A stretch of 6,146 nucleotides of DNA from a bacterium (GTDB taxonomy: Bacteria > Planctomycetota > J058 > JAJDCP01): the NCBI GenBank assembly GCA_030428695.1, contig JAUIEM010000484.1:1-6146 (forward strand). The letters are read 5' to 3'. Every line of letters starts with the position of its first letter. Positions within the stretch are counted from its first letter, which is position 1. Of this stretch, positions 426 through 1,974 are shown in pieces. A program made the position numbers and the translations under genes. Below the pieces are notes generated by a model. It had not been told where the DNA came from and searched no databases. It was given only the letters and a program-made list of their open reading frames with translations.

Positions 426-1022
426 ATGCCCGACGCCCTCCGTGTCATCCGCGAGCCCGCCCAGGCCTCCGCCGTGCTGCAGCCGCTGCGGGCCCGCCTG
501 CTCGGCCTGCTGCGCGAGCCGCAGTCCGCCGCCGGCCTGGCCCGCAGCCTCGCGCTGCCCCGGCAGCGGCTGCGCTACCACCTGCGCGAGCTCGAGAAGC
601 TCGGCCTGGTGGAAGAGGTCGCGTCGCGGCGCAAGGGCAACTGCGTCGAGCGGCTGATGCAGGCGCGGGCGCGGTCCTGGGTGCTGTCGCCCGAGGTGCT
701 CGGCGAGCTCGGGGTCGCGCCGGAGGATGTGCAGGACCGCTTCTCCAGCGCCTACCTGACCGCCGTCCTCGCCCGCTGCCTGCGCGACCTCGTCGCCCAG
801 CGGGCCGAGGCACGCCACGCGGGCAAGCGGCTGGCGACGCTGAGCCTGCAGGCCGACGTGCGCTTCGCTTCCGCCGCCGCCCGGACGTCCTTCAGCGAAG
901 AGCTCGCCGCCAGCCTCGCGAACCTGGTCGCCAAGTACCACGACGCAGAGGCCGACGGCGGGCGCAGCTTCCGCTTCACCCTCGCCGCCCAGCCGACGCC
1001 GATCCCGGAGGACGAGACATGA
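426..1022 (+). CDS. ArsR-type winged-helix transcriptional regulator
   Basis: This 198-residue protein has an N-terminal winged-helix DNA-binding domain at about residues 15-80. A first helix is followed by the SAAGLARSLAL helix, the putative recognition helix PRQRLRYHLRELEKLG (45-60), and a wing LVEEVASRRKGNCVERL. RYHLRELEKLGLV is the typical signature of the ArsR/HTH_20 group. The remaining hundred or so residues are helical and end in a strand-like FRFTLAAQPTP, making it longer than minimal metal-sensing ArsR proteins. No clustered Cys/His metal site is visible, so metal sensing is unlikely. The start at 426 has GAGGAA at 415-420. It is the first gene of an operon with an SRPBCC protein, a pairing common in this regulator group. 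The likely role is local autoregulation; the ligand is unknown. Confidence 0.85.
   Translation: MPDALRVIREPAQASAVLQPLRARLLGLLREPQSAAGLARSLALPRQRLRYHLRELEKLGLVEEVASRRKGNCVERLMQARARSWVLSPEVLGELGVAPEDVQDRFSSAYLTAVLARCLRDLVAQRAEARHAGKRLATLSLQADVRFASAAARTSFSEELAASLANLVAKYHDAEADGGRSFRFTLAAQPTPIPEDET
1007..1011 (+). promoter_or_regulatory. Relict Shine-Dalgarno at end of regulator gene
   Basis: GGAGG lies inside the last codons of the regulator, 7 bases before the ATG at 1019 that overlaps the regulator's TGA. It has no conventional gene to serve now: the frame it opens is the short frame inside the palindromic element. It would be ideally placed for the SRPBCC gene if the element were absent, so it supports an ancestral ATGA overlap at this point. 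Confidence 0.6.
1018..1022 (+). repeat. Left copy of CATGA direct repeat (putative target-site duplication)
   Basis: CATGA at 1018-1022 recurs at 1173-1177, and the two copies flank the palindromic element exactly. The bases immediately outside differ. Collapsing the copies joins the regulator's last codons to the SRPBCC start codon with an ATGA overlap. The match is short, and CATG is itself palindromic, so a duplication of 4 rather than 5 bp is possible. Confidence 0.55.
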
Positions 1023-1177
1023 GCTTGTCTCCGAATTCCGCGAGGGCGTCGCGTAGCGCCGGGCCGCAAGATCGAGGACTGAGTTCGACGGGTGGCGGTG
1101 TCCCTCGGAGAACGAAGACGAAGAGCTTGCGAGCCCGCCGCAAGCGAGGCCCCGTGGAATGGGAGACACGCTCATGA
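1019..1177 (+). CDS. 52-codon open frame traversing the palindromic element
   Basis: An ATG at 1019 overlaps the regulator stop as ATGA, has GGAGG 7 bases upstream, and opens a frame of 52 codons. Its TGA (1175-1177) again overlaps the next gene's ATG. The product would be a basic, Arg/Ser-rich peptide starting MSLSPNSARASRS and ending EWETRS, with no recognisable domain or signal. It lies wholly inside the inverted-repeat element, so it is more likely an incidental frame than a conserved gene. Its translation could nevertheless preserve coupling between the regulator and SRPBCC genes, because ribosomes ending at 1177 would be on top of the start at 1174. Confidence 0.3.
   Translation: MSLSPNSARASRSAGPQDRGLSSTGGGVPRRTKTKSLRARRKRGPVEWETRS
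1023..1172. mobile_element. Putative MITE/ERIC-like palindromic insertion element
   Basis: The segment folds back on itself almost end to end. Paired blocks, in order from the outside and including the flanking repeat, are: CATGAGC 1018-1024 with 1170-1176; TGTCTCC 1026-1032 with 1162-1168; ATTCC 1035-1039 with 1156-1160; TCGC 1049-1052 with 1144-1147; GCG 1056-1058 with 1139-1141; CGGGC 1060-1064 with 1133-1137; CGCAAG 1065-1070 with 1126-1131. By hand roughly 45 of 56 left-arm bases pair, with small bulges. A tighter local hairpin, GCTTGCG/CGCAAGC with a 7-base loop (1125-1145), is an alternative fold. There is no transposase, so it would be non-autonomous. The size, imperfect palindromy and intra-operon position resemble ERIC or NEMIS elements, but I do not recognise a named family. 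A structured RNA is the main alternative. Confidence 0.6.
1161..1165 (+). promoter_or_regulatory. Ribosome binding site supplied by the element's right end
   Basis: GGGAG lies 8 bases before ATG 1174 and is the only good Shine-Dalgarno for the SRPBCC gene as the sequence now stands. It belongs to the right terminal arm of the palindromic element and would be sequestered by TGTCTCC at 1026-1032 if the long hairpin formed, giving a possible translational switch. It also favours 1174 over the in-frame ATG at 1159, which has only a weaker GAGG upstream. Confidence 0.5.
1173..1177 (+). repeat. Right copy of CATGA direct repeat (putative target-site duplication)
   Basis: This second copy of CATGA contains the start codon now used by the SRPBCC gene (ATG 1174-1176) and the stop codon of the frame inside the element (TGA 1175-1177). 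Confidence 0.55.
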
Positions 1178-1974
1178 CCGAGGAAGGCCGCCGCATCGAC
1201 GAGCGCATCGAGCTCGACGCGTCCCCCGACCGCGTCTGGCACGCCCTGACCGACGCCGAGCAGCTCGCCCGCTGGTTCGCCCAGAGCGCCGAGGTCGAGC
1301 CCGGCCCCGGGGGCTCGATCAGCGTCGCCTGGGAGCCGCCCTTCGCGATGAAGTGCAAGGTCGCGACCTGGCAGCCCGGCGAGCGCCTCGCCCTGCGCAT
1401 GGCCCGCGGGCCGGACATCGAGGTCGCGGTCGACTACGAGATCGCCGCCAAGGGCGGAAAGACCGAGCTGCGGGTCGTGCAGTACGGCTTCGGCGACGGC
1501 TCCGACTGGGACGACGAGATCGAGACCACCCGCGGCGGCTGGCGCTTCTTCCTGCGCGCCCTGCGCCAGCTCCTCGAGGTCCACGACGGCGCGGCCCGGC
1601 GCTGCGCCTCCGCCCGCACCCACCCCCTGTGCCTGTCACGGGCCGAGATCTGGCGCCGCCTGACCGCGCCCGAGGGGCTGTTCGCCGGCCTCGCCGTCGA
1701 CGGCCTGGCCGAAGGGGACCCGGTCGCCTTCCGTGGCCCCGCCGGCGACTTCTCCGGCCGGGTCTGGGTGCACCAGCCGGGCATGCAGCTCGGCCTGGAG
1801 CTCGACGGCCTCGGGCGCGGCAACCTGCTGCTCGAGCTCGAGCCGCTCGGGGAGGGGAAGCTGCTGCCCGCGCTCTGGATCTCGACCTGGGGCCTCGGCG
1901 CCGATGCCGTCGACGCCCTGCAGGCGCGCTGCCGCGCCCTGTTCACCACCCTGTTTCCCGAGGAGGAAAACTGA
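1174..1974 (+). CDS. SRPBCC (AHSA1-like) protein with a probable second SRPBCC repeat
   Basis: This 266-residue protein begins with a domain of the Hsp90-ATPase-activator-like SRPBCC fold. RIDERIELDASPDRVWHALT (residues 7-26) matches the family's first strand and helix. LARWFA (31-36), the strand rich in WEPPFAMKCKV, and the closing helix RGGWRFFLRALRQLLEVHDG (120-139) match the rest. Residues 150-262 look like a second, more diverged copy: SRAEIWRRLTAPEGLF echoes the VW..LTD..LARWF motif, and a helix DALQARCRALFTTLFP closes it. Typical single-domain members are about 140-160 residues. There are no catalytic residues to read, and the fold binds hydrophobic ligands or client proteins. The start at 1174 is preferred to 1159 because GGGAG is 8 bases upstream. 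The stop overlaps the next gene's start as TGATG. The ligand is unknown. Confidence 0.85.
   Translation: MTEEGRRIDERIELDASPDRVWHALTDAEQLARWFAQSAEVEPGPGGSISVAWEPPFAMKCKVATWQPGERLALRMARGPDIEVAVDYEIAAKGGKTELRVVQYGFGDGSDWDDEIETTRGGWRFFLRALRQLLEVHDGAARRCASARTHPLCLSRAEIWRRLTAPEGLFAGLAVDGLAEGDPVAFRGPAGDFSGRVWVHQPGMQLGLELDGLGRGNLLLELEPLGEGKLLPALWISTWGLGADAVDALQARCRALFTTLFPEEEN

Follow-up and report, generated by a model that had tools for sequence, protein, structure and literature searches.

Small palindromic elements lodged in bacterial operons have been reported to alter the fate of the mRNA and to donate reading frames to their hosts. Among the described families, YPAL or RU-2 of Yersinia (about 168 bp) is palindromic and not A+T-rich, carries a contiguous frame of 56 codons, makes target duplications whose size varies from 3 to 26 bp and enters targets that span or adjoin a dyad symmetry, as described in the parts of PMC2229807 that concern it. 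The same paper describes ERIC (IRU, RU-1) and RPE, which measure about 100-200 bp, end in inverted repeats, form long stem-loops and may carry open frames and join host frames. Chunjie, a MITE of Geobacter uraniireducens, also sits in an operon; the title cited in PMC10969869 has it inserted without disturbing operon structure, while the passage of the review itself states that it disrupts one copy of a phosphate uptake operon. The BOX elements of pneumococcus (PMC3049150) supply stop codons to upstream genes, in 36 of 58 overlapping frames, and encode predicted short proteins within transcripts. In the open-licence literature we found nothing that joins translational coupling with miniature inverted-repeat elements, and nothing on inverted-repeat MITEs of Myxococcota.

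The locus analysed here holds a palindrome of about 150 bases at the point where two genes would otherwise share an ATGA stop/start overlap, and this palindrome is real and most likely a MITE-like insertion, a reading that rests on one copy and whose interest lies in the stop-to-start relay that the element appears to keep. Its likeness to YPAL extends to length, base composition, a contiguous frame of similar size and a putative dyad target, CATG being itself a dyad, and is drawn from the description; the inverted repeats of YPAL are internal and those found here are terminal, and YPAL is abundant, with empty and filled sites compared across species, whereas one copy is known here (PMC2229807, in the parts cited). 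The earlier note had called the element MITE/ERIC-like, and its termini contradict membership of ERIC: ERIC ends in TA (PMC2229807, Table 1), while CATG(A) flanks the present element and its ends are AGCTTGTCTCC and AGCGTGTCTCC. RPE lies in frame within proteins (PMC2229807), whereas the frame found here is a separate one that starts at one overlap and stops at the other. Chunjie measures 178-235 bp and has 37 further copies, against the single known copy here (PMC10969869, passage cited), and BOX differs in its modular boxA/B/C build and in that the three expressed BOX frames examined have no good Shine-Dalgarno candidates (PMC3049150).

The locus and its genes

The window, that is, the whole stretch of DNA analysed (6146 bases), encodes on its plus strand an ArsR/HTH_20 regulator, an SRPBCC/AHSA1 protein and a DUF1579 protein, and on its minus strand the beta, alpha and gamma subunits of oxaloacetate decarboxylase. 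A search with the alpha subunit placed the closest genomes at no more than 73 percent identity. The regulator's protein record comes from a contig of 6146 bases, and the cluster of the SRPBCC protein reports one of 2378 bases. In agreement with the earlier note, none of the five window proteins scanned is a transposase. The features of the junction are as follows.

426 to 1022, plus strand: ArsR/HTH_20 regulator, the gene upstream of the junction
1007 to 1011, plus strand: GGAGG, 7 bases 5' of the first ATG, best anti-Shine-Dalgarno duplex -9.5 kcal/mol
1018 to 1021: left CATG copy (CATGA if read to 1022), containing the first ATG and overlapping the regulator's TGA; from the sequence and the palindrome boundary
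1019 to 1177, plus strand: open frame of 52 codons with ATGA at each end, bridging both junctions; atypical codon use
1022 to 1172: element body, 151 bases; from hairpin alignment, fold and end search
1161 to 1165, plus strand: GGGAG ahead of the SRPBCC start, contributed by the right arm of the element; best anti-Shine-Dalgarno duplex -7.3 kcal/mol
1173 to 1177: right CATG(A) copy, containing the TGA of the 52-codon frame that overlaps the SRPBCC ATG; from the sequence and the list of open reading frames
1174 to 1974, plus strand: SRPBCC/AHSA1 protein, the gene downstream of the junction

A long palindrome between short direct repeats

Bases 1018-1176 form a single long imperfect hairpin whose edges lie exactly at the two CATG(A) copies. 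A pair count of the longest unbranched stem was not distinctive (57 pairs in the element, 65 and 60 elsewhere in the window), and after it failed to discriminate we adopted a gap-tolerant Watson-Crick hairpin alignment. By this measure the best hairpin of the window has its arms at 1018-1086 and 1110-1176 and scores 32, against 23 for the runner-up and 22 for the top of 40 mononucleotide shuffles; in 1,400,982 bases of other loci two hairpins scored higher, one at L069 (75) and one at L103 (41). The RNA fold of 1010-1185 has a predicted energy of -100.2 kcal/mol, compared with -66.7 +/- 4.1 for shuffles (z -8.16; 0 of 200 equally good), and contains 63 pairs, 60 of them Watson-Crick; the element itself accounts for 60. 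The earlier note's claim of arms of about 55 bases, self-complementary at roughly 80 percent, is borne out: a count by eye in the predicted fold finds 46 of the left arm's first 56 bases in pairs (82 percent). Folding energy by itself is not distinctive here, for the 160-base plus-strand windows at 1661 and 481 (taken in 20-base steps) are more stable. The inverted ends AGCTTGTCTCC and AGCGTGTCTCC (as ends to search with, AGCNTGTCTCC...GGAGACANGCT) differ at one base, and the hairpin spans the full length; terminator-like sites number none on the plus strand of the element and two on the minus strand.

The direct repeats CATGA were likewise found at both flanks, at 1018-1022 and 1173-1177. CATG is self-palindromic, so the duplication can be read either as CATG, with 151 bases between the copies, or as CATGA, with 150, and the empty site is identical in both cases. 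Rejoining the flanks at a single CATG yields GAGACATGACCGAGG, with the ATGA overlap that had been claimed for the removal of the element with one repeat, and a good Shine-Dalgarno sequence precedes it; the element lengthens this junction by 155 bases. The putative target duplication measures only 4-5 bases, is self-palindromic and falls on a start codon and a stop codon. The GGAGG at 1007-1011 would be the Shine-Dalgarno sequence of the former empty junction, which now precedes the 52-codon frame. Downstream, the N-terminus of the SRPBCC protein aligns with that of a relative, P0002 (MDEHAGRRIDERLEI against MTEEGRRIDERIEL). The two proteins begin at the same place, which makes the ATG at 1174 the probable natural start of the SRPBCC gene.

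The junction in distant relatives

Regulator/SRPBCC pairs were sought with an SRPBCC query made of a five-protein alignment (E up to 1e-20), which matched 5 of 377, 14 of 240 and 3 of 35 genomes in overlapping sets, and with the window's SRPBCC protein, which matched 3 of 13 genomes at E up to 0.001 and none of 52 at E up to 1e-10. The alignment searches scored no more than 6 candidates per genome among the 377 and no more than 10 among the 240, and the pairs number at least 14. From the 24 loci examined, 10 with no regulator match were left out (L102-L108, L113, L115 and L126). The 14 pairs kept are distant, with 29-52 percent identity in the regulator and 25-35 percent in the SRPBCC protein.

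Nine of them overlap by 4 to 17 bases. L114 and L117 have an exact ATGA, L119 overlaps by 4 bases with a GTG start or by 10 with an ATG, L122 by 10, L111 and L101 by 14 (L101 judged by eye), and L121, L124 and L125 by 17. One pair is fused, the regulator and the SRPBCC protein sharing a single open frame (L123:1401-1520), and three are spaced by 2 to 29 bases (L127 by 2, L120 by 12, L118 by 29). The last, L112, has an unrelated spacer of 417 bases, which shows that spacers can arise in other ways. Since the proteins are distant, these pairs represent the usual overlapping or close arrangement rather than a sister empty site. Compared by blastn with the 14 loci and L126, the element gave two weak matches, one in L127 (within the regulator gene) and one in L126, and none at a junction.

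The 52-codon frame

The earlier note had described the palindrome as a segment between two genes. It does lie between them, but it is also a frame of 52 codons, open from end to end, with ATGA overlaps on both sides. The GC content of its three codon positions is 0.558, 0.731 and 0.673, and the last of these stands against 0.960-0.971 in the five neighbouring genes. Its synonymous codon score of -1.993 compares with a mean of -0.583 (sd 0.098, minimum -0.889) in windows of the neighbours; 0 of 1388 in-frame windows of 52 codons is equally atypical, and the frame falls 14 standard deviations below, a deviation that is descriptive only since the windows overlap. By its codon use, so far from that of the neighbours, the segment is not an ordinary gene of this genome.

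A search for homologues of the frame or of its reverse frame found none at E up to 1 (1 candidate), the query being a two-row one that included the reverse frame and had reduced sensitivity, and against Pfam the frame gave 0 matches at E up to 1. The chance of an open frame is 0.24 by shuffling or 0.31 by Markov resampling, each to be multiplied by 1/3 for length; at roughly 0.31 x 1/3, chance may account for the openness observed. The element is in fact open in both orientations, which Markov-1 resampling gives in about 0.20 of cases before the factor of 1/3 for length, again a rate that chance could supply. Because the codon use is foreign and no homologue was found, the frame is read as a by-product of insertion.

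Search for further copies

With the 160-base sequence as blastn query, the 13 genomes that carry 13 of the 80 alpha-subunit loci all matched at E up to 10, the best at E 0.015, which is chance level; seven of the 20 loci from this search were examined. The same query over 13, 5 (one order), 377 (one phylum), 128 and 52 genomes gave short scattered matches and no convincing copy; these sets share genomes, none of which is known as a near relative of the host, and the negative result is accordingly weak. The best single match (9e-6 over 39 query bases, at L116 in 1 of the 377 genomes) covers neither end and has no matching hairpin. Weaker ones turned up in 4 genomes out of 128 (E up to 0.001) and in 7 out of 52 (E up to 0.01), at 11 loci (L109, L110 and L129-L137). 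Five of these (L129, L130, L132, L133 and L134) were examined in translation and two (L109 and L110) by folding, while L131 and L135-L137 were assessed for open frames. Together with L116 these make 12 loci, and in each of them one or more open frames span the match, as coding matches by chance would, a criterion that is weak in GC-rich DNA.

The structural model R1, a weak one whose input was the element together with its reverse complement, was run with stricter filters over the 377 genomes; the sole outside place found, on both strands, was at L128, inside a long open reading frame. In the window R1 recovers the element, and the next best match has only 13 bits (E 0.026). A paired-ends pattern was found in 0 of 311 genomes, and three patterns, with paired ends among them, gave no copy in viral contigs. 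Plasmids gave 2 weak matches (E 0.4) and phages none. The earlier note did not recognise the family, and Rfam 15 yields one match at E up to 10, of 14.6 bits against a gathering threshold of 80, which is chance level. The dispersed copies that would mark a mobile family were recovered neither by blastn nor by the structural model in these genomes, which are not known to be close. MITE families are often restricted to a species or genus, and absence of copies is for this reason expected whether the element was inserted or is not mobile.

What the element is

We consider it probable that a non-autonomous, MITE-like palindrome of about 150 bases was inserted at CATG in the ATGA overlap of the ArsR and SRPBCC genes, duplicating CATG(A) and leaving a relay frame of 52 codons. 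Insertion is the best reading, because 13 of the 14 distant pairs overlap, are fused or lie no more than 29 bases apart, two of them with an exact ATGA. The size (151 bases between the CATG copies, within about 100-200 bp), the lack of a transposase and the terminal inverted repeats agree with what defines a MITE, and the move itself would have been made in trans by some transposase encoded elsewhere. Of the two parts of the original proposal, insertion into a stop/start overlap is thus favoured by the P0002-like start, the junctions of relatives and the foreign codon use, while membership of a mobile family is so far not favoured, for want of a second copy in the genomes searched.

It is unlikely, in our estimation, that the palindrome is instead a non-mobile structured spacer evolved in place, an attenuator or translational switch whose hairpin masks the SRPBCC start until a signal opens it. 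The predicted hairpin does pair that start and most of its ribosome site, no convincing copies turned up elsewhere in the genomes searched, and L112 demonstrates a long unrelated spacer. However, one would not expect a regulatory leader to be a full-length imperfect inverted repeat that ends exactly in a short direct repeat, or to leave a clean ATGA when removed; Rfam offers no family above threshold, and the element has no blastn match at the junctions of the 14 regulator loci or L126.

That the frame from 1019 to 1177 is a genuine operonic gene for a small protein of 52 codons strikes us as very unlikely. It is open, overlaps both neighbours by ATGA and has a strong Shine-Dalgarno sequence, but its codon use and third-position GC lie far outside those of the neighbours, neither homologue (E up to 1, at reduced sensitivity) nor Pfam match was found, and its sequence is palindromic. 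A structured intergenic leader inherited from an ancestor and kept in all orthologues is highly improbable, having nothing in its favour beyond the structure itself: the alignable spacer of the same length in every orthologous operon, named in the earlier note as its mark, was not seen, and the 13 relatives at -17 to +29 bases or fused contradict it within their distance. An assembly or amplification chimera deserves hardly any credence, for although the regulator's protein record stands on one contig of 6146 bases with no second assembly to confirm it, such artefacts repeat adjoining sequence in inverted form almost without mismatch, as seems to be the case at L069, whereas the arms here are only about 80 percent complementary and the element model matches no other part of the window strongly.

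Proposed translation through the insert

If a palindromic element did enter at CATG and duplicate CATG(A), its length and sequence would have kept the relay from stop to start, with one frame running from the left CATGA to the right. In the mRNA a long stem would pair the SRPBCC ribosome-binding site and ATG: bases 1162-1165 are predicted to pair with 1029-1032, so that most of the GGGAG site, together with the ATG, is bound to the left arm. The mean unpaired probability near the SRPBCC start is 0.19 with the element and 0.50 in the joined junction. Because the hairpin pairs the downstream start, ribosomes would reach it by way of the short frame; they may translate the 52 codons, open the stem, stop on the SRPBCC ATG and restart at the second ATGA. 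We infer from this predicted structure that translation of the SRPBCC gene now depends mainly on ribosomes coming through the 52-codon frame, and both the translation of that frame and its gating effect would follow from the same model. The long stem might just as well serve as a site for RNase III, by analogy with what has been proposed for Neisseria elements in the part of PMC2229807 that treats them.

If true, an element that sits in an ATGA overlap and relays the stop to the start would show how a translationally coupled gene pair can take up an insertion and stay coupled; it would also provide a simple natural test of termination-reinitiation across a long stem. A further step, that it represents an undescribed family which targets the CATG of CATGA overlaps, with a frame open in either orientation, coupling kept and the downstream start placed under a hairpin, is speculative and in our judgement distinctly improbable.

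Other palindromes and remnants

The hairpin scan is able to find similar shapes elsewhere. At a planctomycete locus, L103:498-642 is a palindrome of 145 bases (score 30) with long matching ends, ATTAATAAGCCCGGAGCGTAAGCGACGGG, and looks like another MITE-type repeat; at the same locus, the intergenic segment 212-367 looks like a hairpin of a different repeat type. L069:4221-4440 is a long inverted repeat that includes coding sequence close to a contig end, a probable assembly chimera or inverted duplication.

Within the window itself, positions 1-279 on the minus strand hold the 5' part of a gene for a membrane-type protein, truncated by the contig end; this piece gave no Pfam match, and its product is presumably similar to TMEM43-like proteins. 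On the plus strand, positions 2655-2890, between the DUF1579 gene and that of the oxaloacetate decarboxylase beta subunit (OadB), contain broken frames, the pieces of two of which gave no Pfam matches; we take them to read like the beginning of a gene of the prolyl oligopeptidase/oligopeptidase B type, and the segment is possibly the remnant of a decayed gene.
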